Source: Bacteroidales bacterium (lineage in GTDB: Bacteria; Bacteroidota; Bacteroidia; Bacteroidales; UBA932). Taken from it: a stretch of DNA of 36,670 nucleotides. Below are positions 801 through 6,398 of this stretch, in pieces. Location: NCBI GenBank assembly GCA_024398295.1, contig JAKSJL010000015.1, forward strand, positions 1-36,670, written 5' to 3'. The notes beneath the pieces are model-generated. The model made no database searches. It was not told the DNA's origin and worked only from the letters and a program-made list of their open reading frames with translations. The first letter of the stretch is position 1, and each line of letters opens with the position of its first letter. A program made the translations under genes and the position numbers.

Positions 801-2084
801 ATGAAAAGAACACTATCATTATTCGTTGGATTTGCATTTAGCCTTGCGGCATTGGCCCAGCCGCATCAGAGTCCCGTGCTCGTCAATGCTATCAAGGCTG
901 TTCCTGATCGCACCTACGGAAACCATGACCCTTACGAGGTACCTCTCATTCATGATACGAAGGCACCGAAGGGCTATCAACCATTCTATATCAGCCACTA
1001 TGGACGCCACGGTTCTCGCTCCGCTTGGGGAGGACCGCTGTACCAGACCTTCCCAGAGGCATTGGCCAAGGCGAAGGCTGCTGGCCTTCTTACTGCATCA
1101 GGAGATTCCCTCATGAATGATGTAAACACCATCGTGACACTCCACGATGGCATGGACGGCCGCCTCACGAAGCTCGGCTTCAAGGAACATCATGGCATCG
1201 CGAATAGAATGTATCATCGCTATCCACGCGTGTTCCAGAAGGGCAGCAAGCGTGTCGTGGCGATGTCCAGCACAGTTCAGCGCTGCATCATCAGCATGAC
1301 TGCGTTCACCAATGAACTGAGTGCGCTAGACCCAAGCCTCGACATCTTCTGTGATACAGGCGAGTCCATCATCGCCTACATCTCGAATGGCGCATCGGAG
1401 TATGTCTCCAAGGAGTCTAGAAAGCTGTTGAAGCAGCTCGATGATAGAGTAGTCAACGACACTCTATATACCGCCAGGGTCATTTTCAATGACGTCGACG
1501 CCGCTCGCGAGCTTCTCGGTTTCAGCATGAAGTCGCTGGAGGGTATGGTTTACTCATTCGCGAGCATCGCAGGCTCATTTGAGATTGGTCACGACATGTT
1601 CCACTATTTGCCATTCGACTTTCTCTATAAGGCATGCGAGCACACAAATATGGACATCTACCTGCGCCAGGCGAACTCAGTGGAGCTCGGTGACGAGCGT
1701 ATGGTGACCACCGTGCCGCTCATCAAGGACATCCTGAAGAGGGCAGACAGCGCCCTGGAGAAGGGCGATGTCGCTGCGGATCTTCGCTTCGGTCATGATT
1801 TTCCTTTCGTGGCAATGTGCTCGTTCCTCGGTGTCGAAGGCATTGGCGACAGAATGTCGCTCGAGGAGGCAAGATACAAGTGGTTTGCTTATGAGAATAC
1901 ACCATTTGCGGCAAATCTCCAGATGATCTTCTATAAGAACAAGTCCGGCGATGTGCTGGTGAAGTTCCTGCATAATGAGAAGGAGACCCATATCATCGGC
2001 CTTCAGGCCGTCTCAGGCCCATACTATCGCTGGAGTGATGTGCGTGCACAGATAGAACAAAACATACATAAATACGAAAGGTAA
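801..2084 (+). CDS. Secreted histidine acid phosphatase, MINPP-like
   Basis: A 427-residue clade-2 histidine phosphatase. The start is ATG 801, giving a clean signal peptide (MKRTLSLFVG then a hydrophobic run ending ALA-Q near residue 19); the open frame extends upstream into the HAD gene but that part is not signal-like. The catalytic RHGSR motif is at residues 69-73, with H70 the expected phospho-acceptor, and the distal HD pair is H332-D333 in a GHDFPF segment. The family includes multiple inositol polyphosphate phosphatases and phytases of gut Bacteroidota, so dephosphorylation of phytate or another phosphoester in the periplasm or outside is likely. The stop codon overlaps the next ATG by one base (TAATG), so it is probably translationally coupled to the downstream dehydrogenase. 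Confidence 0.88.
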   Translation: MKRTLSLFVGFAFSLAALAQPHQSPVLVNAIKAVPDRTYGNHDPYEVPLIHDTKAPKGYQPFYISHYGRHGSRSAWGGPLYQTFPEALAKAKAAGLLTASGDSLMNDVNTIVTLHDGMDGRLTKLGFKEHHGIANRMYHRYPRVFQKGSKRVVAMSSTVQRCIISMTAFTNELSALDPSLDIFCDTGESIIAYISNGASEYVSKESRKLLKQLDDRVVNDTLYTARVIFNDVDAARELLGFSMKSLEGMVYSFASIAGSFEIGHDMFHYLPFDFLYKACEHTNMDIYLRQANSVELGDERMVTTVPLIKDILKRADSALEKGDVAADLRFGHDFPFVAMCSFLGVEGIGDRMSLEEARYKWFAYENTPFAANLQMIFYKNKSGDVLVKFLHNEKETHIIGLQAVSGPYYRWSDVRAQIEQNIHKYER

Positions 2085-3421
2085 TGGATATTATCGAAGA
2101 AGCACTGAAGAGAGCATCGGATACCAAGGCCCTCTTCATCGGTGAAGGAGCCATAAAGAAGGTTCCTGAGATGTTCAGACAGCTCTTTGGCGAAGCCAAG
2201 GCTATCGTCGTTGCAGATACAAACACCTGGAAGGTGGCAGGCGAAGCTGTCCAGAAAGAACTCGTGGCAGCTGGCATACAGACAGACGAGCCATTTATTT
2301 TCAATGATCCCGAACTCTATGCGGAGTGGGGTTATCTCATGCAGCTCGAAGAGCGCCTGAAGGGCACCGAGGCCATGGCTGTCGCTGTGGGTTCAGGTGT
2401 GATCAATGACCTCACGAAGCTTTCGTCACATCACCTCGGAAAGAGGTATATGATAGTAGGTACAGCTGCTTCCATGGATGGCTATACAGCCTACGGAGCA
2501 TCTGTTTCATTTGAAGGAAACAAGCAGACCTTCGACTGCCGCGCTCCTTTTGGAGCCATCATCGAGCCAAAGGTCTCTGCTGAGGCGCCTAAGGCCCTGG
2601 CTGCGTCCGGCTACGCCGACCTCATCGCCAAGGTCCCTGCCGGCGCCGACTGGATCCTCGCAGAGGCTGTGGGTGTAGAACCTATCGACCAGTTCTCGTT
2701 TGACCTTGTGCAGAAGCCTCTGAGAGAGTCCCTCTCGAAGCCAGATGCAGTGTTCCAGGGCGATGTGGAGTCTACCAGGCTTCTTGCCGAGGGCCTCATC
2801 ATGAGCGGTTTCGCTATGCAGGCACTCCAGTCAAGCCGCCCAGCTTCAGGTACTGAGCATCAGTTCAGCCACTACTGGGATATGGAAGGTCTCTGCTACG
2901 AGGGAAAGCACGTCTCACATGGTTTCAAGGTGGGTATAGGAACATTGGTTTCTACAGCCTGTTTGGAGTATCTTCTTTCGAAGGATGTCGAGAATCTCGA
3001 CGTCGATGCATGCGTCGCAGCATGGCCAAGCTGGGAGGAGATGGAGGCACAGATCCACTCTATCTTCGACGGACGCCCAGGACATCTCTCAAGGGCCCTC
3101 ACAGAGTCAAAGAACAAGTACTGTGACAAGGATGCGCTTCGCAAGCAGCTTGAGGCACTCAAGGCCGGCTGGCCTGAGACCAAGGAGCGCATCAAGGCTC
3201 AGATCATGACATTCGAAGAGGTGAAGGATTCACTCAAGAGAGTACACGCTCCATACGAGCCAGAGATGATAGGTGTGTCCAAGGAGAAGCTTAAGGACAC
3301 ATTCCGCGGCATCCCATTCATGCGTAGTCGCTTCACCGGTATGGATATCCTCTATCGCTGTGGCTTCATGGAAGAGGTTACAGAGAAGCTCTTCGGCAAG
3401 GGAGGATACTGGGAAATCTAA
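2084..3421 (+). CDS. sn-glycerol-1-phosphate dehydrogenase (AraM/EgsA family)
   Basis: A 445-residue member of the iron-containing alcohol dehydrogenase/dehydroquinate synthase fold. The nucleotide-binding GSGVINDLTK loop is near residue 104 and the family hallmark ASMDGYTAYG near 129 corresponds to PSMDGY in AraM/EgsA. Likely metal ligands are the Asp of SGYADLIAK and the His residues of EHQFSHYWD and VSHGFKVG. The family reduces dihydroxyacetone phosphate to sn-glycerol-1-phosphate with NAD(P)H, the stereoisomer used for archaeal lipids and, in some bacteria, for rare heptaprenylglyceryl compounds. It is about 50 residues longer than B. subtilis AraM, mostly at the C-terminus. It is last in the operon, overlapping the phosphatase stop by one base and ending just before a strong terminator. 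Function of G1P here is not known to me. Confidence 0.87.
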   Translation: MDIIEEALKRASDTKALFIGEGAIKKVPEMFRQLFGEAKAIVVADTNTWKVAGEAVQKELVAAGIQTDEPFIFNDPELYAEWGYLMQLEERLKGTEAMAVAVGSGVINDLTKLSSHHLGKRYMIVGTAASMDGYTAYGASVSFEGNKQTFDCRAPFGAIIEPKVSAEAPKALAASGYADLIAKVPAGADWILAEAVGVEPIDQFSFDLVQKPLRESLSKPDAVFQGDVESTRLLAEGLIMSGFAMQALQSSRPASGTEHQFSHYWDMEGLCYEGKHVSHGFKVGIGTLVSTACLEYLLSKDVENLDVDACVAAWPSWEEMEAQIHSIFDGRPGHLSRALTESKNKYCDKDALRKQLEALKAGWPETKERIKAQIMTFEEVKDSLKRVHAPYEPEMIGVSKEKLKDTFRGIPFMRSRFTGMDILYRCGFMEEVTEKLFGKGGYWEI

Positions 3422-3493: not shown

Positions 3494-4864
3494 TTACTCT
3501 ACCTTAGGGAGCTTAGAGAGTGCCTCCTGGATCTCCTCGTCGGTAGGGATGCTGTCAGTCATGGTGCCTTCGTTGAACTGCTTGTAAGCATAGAGGTCGA
3601 AGTTACCAGTACCTGAGAGGTTGAAGACGATGGTCTTCTCCTCGCCGGTCTCCTTGCACTTGAGAGCCTCGTCGATAGCAGCGCGGATAGCGTGGCTTGA
3701 CTCTGGTGCAGGAAGAATACCCTCAGCGTGTGCGAAGGTGACAGCTGCATCAAACACTGCAGTCTGCTCGTAAGCACGTGCCTCGAAGAGTCCCTGGTGA
3801 TAGAGCTCAGAAAGGATAGGGCTCATTCCGTGGAAACGGAGACCACCAGCGTGGTTTGCAGAAGGGATGAACTGGCTACCGATGGTGTACATCTTAGCGA
3901 GAGGGCAGATCATACCGGTGTCGCAGAAGTCGTAAGCATAGACTCCACGGGTGAAGCTAGGGCAAGAAGCAGGCTCAGCGCCAATGATCTTGTAGTTTGC
4001 CTCTCCACGGAGCATCTCACCGAGGAATGGTGCTGCGAATCCTCCGAGGTTTGAACCACCACCAGTACAGCCGATGAGGATGTCTGGCTTGATGCCGTAC
4101 TTCTTGAGGGCAGCTTGGGTCTCGAGACCGATGATAGACTGATGGAGAAGAACCTGGTTCAGTACTGAACCGAGCTCATATCTGTAGCCCTCGTTTGTAA
4201 CTGCTACCTCTACAGCCTCTGAGATGGCGCAACCGAGTGAACCAGTGGTTCCTGGATGCTCAGCGAGGATCTTGCGTCCTACCTCTGTGGTGTCACTTGG
4301 GGAAGGGACAATGTCTGCACCGAAGGTACGGATAACCTCACGACGGAAAGGCTTCTGCTCGTAAGAGCACTTTACCATGTAGACCTTACAGTCGAGTCCG
4401 AAGTACTGACAAGCCATTGAGAGAGCTGTACCCCACTGACCAGCACCGGTCTCTGTGGTTACACCCTTGAGGCCCTGCTTCTTCGCATAGTAAACCTGAG
4501 CGATGGCTGAGTTAAGCTTGTGGCTACCAGAGGTGTTGTTTCCCTCGAACTTGTAGTAGATCTTGGCTGGGGTGCCAAGAGCCTTCTCAAGGAATGTAGC
4601 GTGTACGAGAGGGGATGGACGGTACATCTTGTAGAAGTTGCGTACTTCCTCAGGGATATCGAAGAACTTGGTATCGTTGTCGAGCTCCTGCTTTACGAGT
4701 TCCTCGCAGAAGATGCCACACATTTCCTCTGCCTTGAGAGGCTGGCCGGTTCCTGGGTTAAGGAGTGGTGCAGGCTTAACCTTCATGTCTGCACGTACGT
4801 TATACCACTGCTTAGGCATCTCGCTTTCCTCGAGATAGATCTTGTAAGGAATTTTCTCTTCCAT
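3494..4864 (-). CDS. trpB2: TrpB2-type tryptophan synthase beta chain
   Basis: A 456-residue PLP enzyme of the TrpB2 group, longer than canonical TrpB (about 400) by the typical N-terminal extension (YNVRADM, then PLLNPGTG). The PLP lysine is K116 in SGSHKLNSA, and the glycine-rich phosphate loop is GCTGGGSN in the second half. TrpB condenses indole with serine to give tryptophan; TrpB2 proteins lack the usual TrpA contacts and often act alone, so indole salvage is plausible. No trpA or other trp gene is adjacent. The gene is preceded by a Trp-rich leader peptide and an intrinsic terminator (4905-5033), direct sequence evidence that it responds to charged tRNA-Trp, which supports a role in Trp supply rather than another beta-replacement reaction. 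ATG 4864 matches the family N-terminus. Confidence 0.93.
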   Translation of the reverse strand: MEEKIPYKIYLEESEMPKQWYNVRADMKVKPAPLLNPGTGQPLKAEEMCGIFCEELVKQELDNDTKFFDIPEEVRNFYKMYRPSPLVHATFLEKALGTPAKIYYKFEGNNTSGSHKLNSAIAQVYYAKKQGLKGVTTETGAGQWGTALSMACQYFGLDCKVYMVKCSYEQKPFRREVIRTFGADIVPSPSDTTEVGRKILAEHPGTTGSLGCAISEAVEVAVTNEGYRYELGSVLNQVLLHQSIIGLETQAALKKYGIKPDILIGCTGGGSNLGGFAAPFLGEMLRGEANYKIIGAEPASCPSFTRGVYAYDFCDTGMICPLAKMYTIGSQFIPSANHAGGLRFHGMSPILSELYHQGLFEARAYEQTAVFDAAVTFAHAEGILPAPESSHAIRAAIDEALKCKETGEEKTIVFNLSGTGNFDLYAYKQFNEGTMTDSIPTDEEIQEALSKLPKVE

Positions 4865-4904: not shown

Positions 4905-4943
4905 AAAAAAAAGAACTCAGTCGTCGTAATACGGCTGAGTTCC
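4905..4943 (-). terminator. Trp attenuator terminator
   Basis: On the minus strand, GGAACTCAG (4943-4935) pairs with CTGAGTTC (4920-4913) and is followed by eight T residues (4912-4905), 40 bases ahead of the trpB2 ATG. A competing pairing exists: AGTCGTAA at 4984-4977, overlapping the leader-peptide stop codon, can pair with the TTACGACGACT stretch at 4929-4919, which forms the loop and first bases of the 3' arm of the terminator. That is the expected antiterminator geometry: a ribosome stalled at the Trp codons leaves 4984-4977 free, while a ribosome at the stop codon covers it. Confidence 0.85.
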
Positions 4944-4982
4944 TATGCTTGTATATGCACGCAGGTTTCTGACCTCTTACGA

Positions 4983-5033
4983 CTAGTTAAGCTGTAACAG
5001 GCACCACCACCAATATGAGCGTGAGTTGAACAT
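4983..5033 (-). CDS. trpL: Trp leader peptide (16 aa, three tandem Trp codons)
   Basis: This tiny minus-strand frame reads MFNSRSYWWWCLLQLN and stops at TAG (4985-4983). Three consecutive TGG codons in a 16-codon frame, located between a promoter and an intrinsic terminator ahead of a tryptophan synthase gene, are the hallmark of ribosome-mediated attenuation. The peptide itself need have no function; its translation senses charged tRNA-Trp. The predicted start point is about 12 bases upstream of its ATG, and no Shine-Dalgarno is visible, as usual in this phylum. It is not homologous in sequence to E. coli TrpL beyond the Trp run. Confidence 0.88.
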   Translation of the reverse strand: MFNSRSYWWWCLLQLN

Positions 5034-5051
5034 AATTTCTTGTTTCTGAGC

Positions 5052-5082
5052 GCAAGTTATGTATTCGATTTTTAAAATCAAA
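5052..5082 (-). promoter_or_regulatory. Promoter of trpL-trpB2
   Basis: On the minus strand TTTG (5082-5079) is followed after 19 bases by TAACTTGC (5059-5052), which agrees with TAnnTTTG at six of the eight positions, counting both free ones. The expected start point is near 5048-5045, just upstream of the leader peptide ATG at 5033. There is no GC-rich terminator between the purA stop and this promoter, so some purA readthrough could also enter the attenuator. Confidence 0.6.
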
Positions 5083-5105: not shown

Positions 5106-6398
5106 TTATCTGAAAATAGTAGCCTTGCGGTCAGGTCCGAGAGAGATGATCTTGATAGGTACACCGAGGTATGACTCCATGAAAGCTACATAGTCGGTGA
5201 ACTCCTTAGGAAGGTCCTTCTCCTCGGAAATCTGGGTAAGGTCGCAGTTCCATCCCTTGAACTCTGTATATACTGGCTTGATAGGGGTAGAGATGTCAAA
5301 TGGAACCTCATTTGTCTCCACACCGTTTACCTTGTATGAGGTACATACCTTGATGGTTTCGAAGTCGTCGAGGCAGTCAGACTTCATCATGATGAGGTCG
5401 GTGACTCCGTCAATGATGCAGGCGTACTTGAGTGCGACGAGGTCGAGCCAGCCGCAGCGACGAGGACGACCGGTGACAGCACCGAACTCATGGCCAACGG
5501 CCCTGAGGTGCTCTCCGGTCTCGTCGAGGAGCTCGGTAGGGAACGGACCGCTACCTACTCTGGTACAGTATGCCTTGAAGATACCATATACACTGCCGAT
5601 CTGCTGAGGAGCGACACCGAGGCCGCTGCATGCGCCAGAGCATGATGTGGTAGAAGAGGTGACGAATGGATATGAGCCATAGTCTACATCGAGCATGGTG
5701 CCCTGTGCGCCCTCAGCGAGGATGGACTCCTTCTGGAGTACATCATTAATATAATACTCGCAGTTCACTGTCTTGAACTCCTTCACGAACTCCACAGCAT
5801 CGAAGAATGCTTTCTCTTCATCCTCGAAAGAGCCAGAGAGTGGGGCTACTGGATTCTGCTTCCAGTCGTAGTCGAGCCTCTCGATGTCAGCGATGTGACG
5901 GTCTCTGAGCTTCTCGTACTTAGCCTTGAAGTCTGGGTCGAGGATATCGCCGATGCGAAGTCCATGACGGCTAATCTTATCTGTATAGCAAGGACCGATA
6001 CCCTTGAGGGTAGAACCGATCTTTCCCTTCTTTGCGGCAGCCTCATTTGCTGCGTCGAGGAGTCTATGGGTAGGGAGGATGATGTGAGCCTTGCGGCCGA
6101 GCACCAGGCGCTCTTTGATAGGAACTCCCGCAGCGATGAGCTCGAGGCACTCCTTGCGGAACGCGATAGGGTCAAATACGACACCGTTTCCAATGATGTT
6201 TGTGGTCCCGTCTCTGAAGATACCAGAAGGAATGGAGCGGAGCACGAAGCTCTTGCCATCGAAATGCAGCGAATGACCAGCATTTGGACCTCCCTGGAAT
6301 CTGGCTACCTTGGTGTAGCGCTCAGCGAGTACGTCCACGATTTTTCCCTTTCCTTCATCTCCCCACTGGAGACCCAGGATGACATCGATCTTTTTCAT
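5106..6398 (-). CDS. purA: Adenylosuccinate synthetase
   Basis: A 430-residue PurA, the usual length. It condenses IMP and aspartate using GTP to make adenylosuccinate, the first committed step to AMP. The N-terminal GTP-binding loop GLQWGDEGKGK occupies residues 9-19, with D14 and K17 matching catalytic E. coli D13 and K16, and the GGPNAGH segment supplies H42, matching H41. The family segment GIGPCY and a C-terminal SLGPDRKATI near the end also fit. It is cytoplasmic. It lies 30 bases downstream of tcdA on the same strand and upstream of the trp leader. ATG 6398 gives the canonical N-terminus. Confidence 0.97.
   Translation of the reverse strand: MKKIDVILGLQWGDEGKGKIVDVLAERYTKVARFQGGPNAGHSLHFDGKSFVLRSIPSGIFRDGTTNIIGNGVVFDPIAFRKECLELIAAGVPIKERLVLGRKAHIILPTHRLLDAANEAAAKKGKIGSTLKGIGPCYTDKISRHGLRIGDILDPDFKAKYEKLRDRHIADIERLDYDWKQNPVAPLSGSFEDEEKAFFDAVEFVKEFKTVNCEYYINDVLQKESILAEGAQGTMLDVDYGSYPFVTSSTTSCSGACSGLGVAPQQIGSVYGIFKAYCTRVGSGPFPTELLDETGEHLRAVGHEFGAVTGRPRRCGWLDLVALKYACIIDGVTDLIMMKSDCLDDFETIKVCTSYKVNGVETNEVPFDISTPIKPVYTEFKGWNCDLTQISEEKDLPKEFTDYVAFMESYLGVPIKIISLGPDRKATIFR

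Follow-up and report, generated by a model that had tools for sequence, protein, structure and literature searches.

A probable Bacteroid-trp-type attenuator ahead of a stand-alone trpB2 gene in Bacteroidales

In classical attenuation, the tRNA is sensed through tandem Trp codons. In the trpL attenuator of E. coli, known from the work of Yanofsky, strand 3 of the leader RNA is the 5' arm of the terminator. A different signal is read through TnaC, where free tryptophan or indole acts on the nascent peptide. In Bacteroidota, the Bacteroid-trp leader RNA is described as Rfam family RF01692 (Weinberg 2010, PMC2864571).

A tryptophan leader family of Bacteroidota is therefore already known from Rfam. 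What is new in the case described here is the target gene, the lack of a trp operon in the majority of the genus, and the difference from T-box control. No earlier description of a trpB2 leader in Bacteroidota was found in the parts of the open-licence literature that were searched.

The locus lies in a window of 36,670 nucleotides, which is the whole stretch of DNA analysed, from a Bacteroidales bacterium (assembly GCA_024398295.1, contig JAKSJL010000015.1). On the minus strand, 241 bases separate purA (5106-6398) from trpB2 (3494-4864). The features of the locus are as follows.

5079..5082, minus strand: -33 element TTTG of a predicted Bacteroidetes-type promoter, with a spacing of 19 nt to the -7 element.
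5052..5059, minus strand: -7 element TAACTTGC of the same predicted promoter.
4983..5033, minus strand: leader peptide frame MFNSRSYWWWCLLQLN of 16 codons, with ATG at 5033-5031 and stop codon TAG at 4985-4983; its translation is presumed.
5004..5012, minus strand: WWW, three consecutive Trp codons read from the sequence, the presumed sensor.
4990..5002, minus strand: strand 1, within the codons right after WWW; together with strand 2 it forms the protector hairpin 1:2.
4972..4984, minus strand: strand 2, the antiterminator strand, which starts inside the stop codon; its first part, AGTCGTAA, occupies 4984-4977.
4911..4944, minus strand: intrinsic terminator hairpin, from RNA folding.
4923..4929, minus strand: strand 3 (TTACGAC), the partner of strand 2, formed by the terminator loop and the start of the terminator 3' arm.
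4905..4912, minus strand: T tract of the terminator, a run of eight T's ending 40 nt ahead of trpB2.
3494..4864, minus strand: trpB2, a stand-alone tryptophan synthase beta chain of the TrpB2 type, 456 aa, with ATG at 4864.

The leader is confirmed as real at these coordinates, beyond chance. The leader frame, the WWW run, the strand at 4984-4977, the terminator and the T run lie where a sequence-only reading of the locus had placed them, as direct reading of the letters confirms. That reading did not include strand 1 (5002-4990), the protector partner of strand 2, which forms 11 pairs in helix 1:2 when this leader is folded. When the 241-nt intergenic region was shuffled with its dinucleotides preserved, an ATG frame of 6-40 codons containing WW arose in 16 of 20,000 shuffles, and one containing WWW in 0 of 20,000. 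The fold of the 156-nt leader is better than that of 199 of 200 shuffled sequences (z -2.9).

The sequence-only reading had also claimed a promoter. Bacteroidetes-like elements are present as claimed, but their score of 8/10, against what is taken to be the Bacteroidetes promoter consensus, is reached by 112 of 400 shuffled upstream regions and is weak and not significant for this sequence alone. The signal is clearer in the class as a whole: 40 of the 80 leaders retained from the genus score 9-10, compared with 19 of 400 shuffled regions. The 7-bp antiterminator is likewise not significant alone (shuffle p 0.07), and its support therefore comes from relatives.

At gathering scores, Rfam gave no match anywhere in the window. 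A scan of 261 bases at E<=10 returned eight matches to unrelated families, all far under their cut-offs.

Relatives of the gene are common, and trpB2 was found in 132 of the 161 genomes of the genus (E<=1e-40). The upstream set covered 127 of the 132 genomes with 128 trpB2 regions; left out were G172, whose sequence was absent from the set, and G085, G117, G154 and G170, whose trpB2 matches had no N-terminal end. A leader was classed as full when a short frame containing WW or W-x-W had, no more than 130 nt after it, a hairpin (-8 kcal/mol or lower) and a T-rich stretch. This class initially held 82 of the 128 regions, and 80 were kept, all with WW. The candidate leaders of G113 and G115 were rejected because their W codons lie in the apparent end of the upstream gene.

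In the 80 leaders, the leader stop codon marks the typical start of the best-scoring strand 2, with a median offset of -4 nt and the middle half of the values between -8 and +2. Contiguous 2:3 pairing exceeds that of shuffles (p<0.05) in only 40 of the 80, and no significant contiguous antiterminator was found in the other half. Two subtypes, RWWRLA (G009, G125, G131) and WWRLKDISGQ (G004, G011, G023, G071), have no clear contiguous antiterminator; their terminator may be controlled differently.

The leader could in principle be a relic or a hitch-hiker. The terminator would then serve the upstream transcript, which is that of purA in the window, and the W-rich frame would be a functionless remnant of a lost trp operon. 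Such a reading can draw on the short distance in the window, where trpB2 begins 241 nt past purA, and on the 46 regions outside the full class, 29 of which are "T only", with a terminator-like hairpin ahead of a leaderless trpB2. Of the 29 "T only" regions, 26 were inspected by eye; a WW frame was seen in none of these 26, and most of them appear to hold the tail of an upstream gene together with that gene's own terminator.

Two observations speak against a relic. Within the flanks fetched, purA is found upstream of trpB2 only in the window's genome, G000, and in 0 of 35 other loci tested, so the leader appears to travel with trpB2 and not with the neighbouring gene. Moreover, across trpB2 genes only 53-59% identical to that of the window, the leaders retain their WW runs, the competing helices and a strand 2 located at the stop codon. 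A functionless remnant is thus very unlikely.

By eye, leaderless trpB2 genes (for example in G025, G068, G159 and G182) often follow the tail of a putative succinate dehydrogenase membrane subunit gene together with its terminator.

Covariation was examined in the main type of leader. Of the 80 leaders, 53 matched the strand-2 motif after the Trp codons, and 52 remained once G180 had been dropped as different: 12 with the window's type of trpB2 and 40 with a trpB2 that is 53-59% identical. Because the leaders were chosen by this motif, the conservation of strand 2 is partly selected; its partners were not chosen in this way.

The shared core of helix 1:2, six pairs long, is 93.5% paired in 51 distinct leaders, compared with 28-47% when slid. 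Helix 2:3 is 89.9% paired, compared with 20-57% when slid, and has 34 cells changed on both sides, a number that no shuffle equalled; swaps between the two trpB2 groups include C-G to U-A and U-A to C-G. The terminator helix is 92.5% paired in the 52 leaders, compared with 31-49% when slid, and all 11 of its pairs show both-sided changes (137 cells, with no shuffle as high). In the other two helices, the count of such pairs is unremarkable: two of six in helix 1:2 (158 of 500 shuffles as high) and five in helix 2:3 (reached by 88 of 500). The covariation score exceeds all 500 shuffles for each of the three helices, but the slid controls weigh more, since related sequences can beat covariation shuffles without any structure. 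With this comparative evidence and the state folding described next, a mutually exclusive antiterminator and terminator can be regarded as established for the 52 main-type leaders, and not for the other 28 of the 80.

The competition between these helices can be followed by folding the leader in different states. The ribosome was placed on the second Trp codon or on the stop codon, with an assumed footprint of 13 nt, counted from where the A-site codon begins, and the terminator 3' arm was either complete or shortened by 5 nt. With the ribosome at the second Trp codon and the shortened 3' arm, the antiterminator wins in 51 of 52 leaders. The terminator wins in 51 of 52 when the ribosome is at the stop codon and in 48 of 52 when the RNA is ribosome-free. 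The leader of G000 itself gives 1.00 for the antiterminator in the stalled state, and 0.99 for the terminator both at the stop codon and without a ribosome. Once the full 3' arm is out, the terminator outweighs the antiterminator at equilibrium in 39 of 52 leaders even when the ribosome is stalled (0.85 versus 0.15 in G000). The switch must therefore be kinetic and be decided during transcription.

The origin of the leader can be approached with a model, R1, that was built solely from the 52 trpB2 leaders and run over the genus and the order. In trpA-bearing members of the genus, R1 finds trp-operon leaders near trpB1/trpA, with at least 33.9 bits in 11 of 14 stretches; two of the other three gave weak matches (about 20 bits) and one gave none. 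The peptides of these operon leaders (NAYWWWRLLQL, NKYWWWRLLQL) resemble those of the trpB2 leaders, and peptides like NAYWWWRLLQL are also found ahead of trpB2. G012, for instance, has the leader peptide MIANNAYWWWRLLQL ahead of trpB2 and MYMMNAYWWWRPLQLRQS ahead of its trp operon. The latter leader (G012 C20) is a member of RF01692 and is found by R1 at E 2.8e-13, overlapping the RF01692 match. Within G000, where a wider regulon was sought, the trpB2 leader is the only R1 match at E<=0.01 under strict filters.

Among 149 genomes of the order, 70 were matched by R1 at E<=0.01, many of the matches being partial and near chance. Twenty-one R1 loci were read, consisting of 20 loci of the order and L265, with the window included; a WW peptide is present in 20. 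The next gene is trpB1 in nine, trpE in nine (calls whose best match is TIGR00564, under its cut-off) and trpB2 in three, namely the window, L281 (from another family) and L285. At L285 (G205 C180), the match precedes a short TrpB2-like frame and a WW leader frame was not found; this is maybe a decayed copy or the end of a contig.

RF01692 itself matched 1 of 61 genus genomes, at the trp operon of G012, and 11 of 149 order genomes (seven above the cut-off), and R1 overlaps 10 of these 11. The next gene at the 11 matches is trpB1 in eight (two of them, in G046 and G054, judged from positions only), trpE in one, a TrpE-like gene by eye in one (L294) and unassigned in one (L297); as far as these genes are identified, trpB2 is never among them. 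Even at E<=10, RF01692 did not hit the window. Since a model made from trpB2 leaders finds both trp-operon leaders and RF01692 members, the trpB2 leader appears to be a divergent branch of the Bacteroid-trp family that is attached to another gene. It may have been copied from the operon or inherited otherwise.

The related operon leaders bear on a further alternative, in which the element is a true attenuator with another signal. Free tryptophan or indole would act on the nascent peptide, as with TnaC, and the W run would be part of an arrest peptide. Residues do recur around the W run (N-rich before it; RLLQL or RTCS after it), but strand 1 overlaps the codons that follow W, which means that RNA pairing can account for their conservation, and the N-terminal parts vary. 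Tandem Trp codons point instead to their classical role in sensing tRNA, and the related leaders serve loci that begin with trpE and with trpB1. An arrest peptide is a most improbable explanation.

The anatomy of the leader, its conservation, its covariation and its homology to trp-operon leaders can all be followed in the sequences themselves. Most likely, the element is a ribosome-mediated, Bacteroid-trp-type attenuator that controls the stand-alone trpB2 and either derives from the trp-operon leader or is its paralogue. Stalled-ribosome attenuation had been proposed from the single sequence, and it is now supported by conservation, by covarying and competing helices, by state folding and by homology to trp-operon leaders of the same genus. 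The same holds for two of its details. The antiterminator strand had been said to lie where a terminating ribosome would mask it, which agrees with where strand 2 starts relative to the stop codon in the 80 leaders; and the stalled and released states switch between antiterminator and terminator as expected (51 of 52 each, the stalled state with the 3' arm 5 nt short).

In such an attenuator, translation of the leader would couple the supply of tryptophan to transcription. When charged tRNA-Trp is ample, the leading ribosome would pass the WWW codons to the stop codon and cover strand 2; alternatively, it would leave and hairpin 1:2 would form. With strand 2 covered or held in 1:2, the terminator hairpin would form and transcription would end before trpB2. 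In a shortage of tryptophan, the ribosome would presumably stall at the Trp codons and cover strand 1. Strand 2 could then capture strand 3, and RNA polymerase would continue into trpB2. The resulting TrpB2, whose synthesis would respond to tryptophan, would probably convert community-derived indole to tryptophan.

The protein scores 674.7 bits against NF009057 (cut-off 366) and 586.4 bits against TIGR01415 (cut-off 518.85). Its score against TIGR00263, the trpB family, is only 151.6 bits, so far under the cut-off of 392.45 that the protein is not a TrpB1. In a PDB sequence search, the near chains are named tryptophan synthase beta chain 1 or 2, and the best is 6hul (beta chain 1).

The genome of the window, G000, comprises 2.09 Mb in 125 contigs. 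Matches to trpA, trpC, trpB1 and tryptophanase were all not found in it, although at 76% completeness the apparent lack of trpA, trpB1 and trpC may reflect missing sequence. G012, the closest genome by trpB2 (93%), has trpA and an operon leader. In the genus, trpC is present in 22 of 161 genomes and full-length trpA in 22 of 161. Because trpA and trpC are absent from most of these genomes, TrpB2 probably makes tryptophan from indole supplied by the community; a lone TrpB2 without trpA, trpC, trpB1 and tryptophanase would need external indole. Indole salvage by TrpB2 would fit this gene content. In T. kodakarensis, both TrpB1 and TrpB2 are involved in the salvage of indole (Hiyama 2014, as cited in PMC11085991).

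The leader is also distributed according to trpA. It stands ahead of trpB2 in 76 of 107 genomes without a found trpA (a count that excludes the second G067 region, with only 81 nt upstream), in 4 of 18 with full-length trpA and in 0 of 2 with trpA fragments. Fisher p is 1.2e-4 for 76/107 versus 4/18, and 0.001 for 35 of 49 trpA-less versus 1 of 9 trpA-bearing genomes among those at least 90% complete, but both values are too strong because the genomes are related and species are not independent, and an absent trpA may be a gap in a draft assembly. The sequence-only reading had tied itself to the recurrence of the leader ahead of trpB2 in relatives. The outcome is mixed. Most trpA-less genomes do keep it, whereas 31 of 107 trpA-less and 14 of 18 trpA-bearing genomes lack it.

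This distribution helps to weigh a third alternative, in which the attenuator works as proposed and TrpB2 does not serve indole salvage. The enzyme could be an auxiliary beta chain acting with TrpA, or a serine or phosphoserine enzyme whose product is not mainly tryptophan. Such roles would be compatible with the 4 of 18 trpA-bearing genomes that keep the leader, with the trpA and operon leader of G012, the genome closest to G000 by trpB2, and with the beta chain 1 name of the best PDB match, 6hul. The association of the leader with the absence of trpA, drawn from related genomes with possible draft gaps, argues against them, and a role other than salvage is rather unlikely.

Tryptophanase shows a pattern of its own. 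A trpB2 match is missing in 7 of 15 genomes with a tryptophanase-like match above 500 bits and in 22 of 146 others (Fisher p 0.007), in a post hoc comparison on drafts where all tryptophanase-like matches are under the TIGR02617 cut-off of 825.8 and four of the seven are counted as missing because the list of matched genomes does not contain them. The production and the use of indole may fall to different species.

As for the gene neighbourhood, a conserved association with PurA was rejected on the count of 0 of 35 other loci in the fetched flanks. On the plus strand of the window, a glycerol-1-phosphate dehydrogenase-like gene lies at 2084-3421 (NF002022, 158 bits; cut-off 413), and it adjoins a gene at 723-2084 for a 453-aa protein without an NCBIfam match.

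Further relatives of the enzyme were taken as the best 80 of 592 confirmed contig matches, which are 77-81% identical to the TrpB2 of the window. In a tree of 96 TrpB2 proteins, the window's type falls with Bacillota, apart from the other TrpB2 of the genus (support 100). In this tree, made by a quick method with a midpoint root and giving no direction of transfer between the two phyla, 31 Bacteroidota rows cluster together next to Bacillota (support 97).

The upstream regions of these 80 relatives, assigned to phyla by their record titles, differ. The T-box core pattern occurs in 47 of 64 Bacillota regions (one more was too short) and in 0 of 15 Bacteroidota regions; the Rfam T-box cut-off was reached by 2 of the 10 Bacillota loci scanned. 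An R1 leader is present in 4 of the 15 Bacteroidota relatives (L034, L036, L041, L051), and the other 11 have neither the leader nor the T-box core.

These observations can be joined in a tentative history, which is possible though far from assured. The trp-operon leader would have outlived its operon, and a native copy would have taken over a trpB2 of a type shared with Bacillota, replacing the T-box under the same signal. Bacteroidales that have only trpB2 would then be conditional tryptophan prototrophs, switching to community indole as charged tRNA-Trp runs low.

The attenuator would link trpB2, whose role is unclear, to a lack of tryptophan in a large Bacteroidales genus. It leads to the prediction that species scored as tryptophan auxotrophs may live on indole. 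In the parts consulted of a reconstruction of gut amino-acid metabolism (PMC9026213), the variants include TrpAB-only and longer partial ones, and a TrpB2-only variant is not among them. One presumed signal would act on nearly the same enzyme through two RNA mechanisms, the leader peptide and the T-box. For Rfam, the Bacteroid-trp model misses the branch of leaders found on trpB2.

Compared with known systems, the protein belongs with TrpB2 (COG1350, TIGR01415), being above the family cut-off. The T-box found on trpB2 in Bacillota shares with the leader the type of gene, the attenuation of transcription and, presumably, the signal, uncharged tRNA-Trp; a T-box is a tRNA-binding RNA, unlike the leader peptide arrangement, and the window has no Rfam T-box match. 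RF01692 shares with the leader its occurrence in Bacteroidota, the tandem Trp codons and homology to R1, and the strand AGUCGUAAG of its consensus is common to the leader of the window. It differs in that its model misses the window and that its next genes, as far as identified, are trpB1 or trpE, whereas here the gene is trpB2.

The trpL attenuator of E. coli has the same tandem Trp codons, protector 1:2, antiterminator 2:3 and masking of strand 2 at the stop codon. Its antiterminator takes the 5' arm of the terminator, whereas here the corresponding alignment columns, 93-104, are the loop and the 3' arm, and strand 3 in the window (4929-4923) is likewise loop and 3' arm. Finally, the target in the window is a lone gene and not the operon of a pathway.
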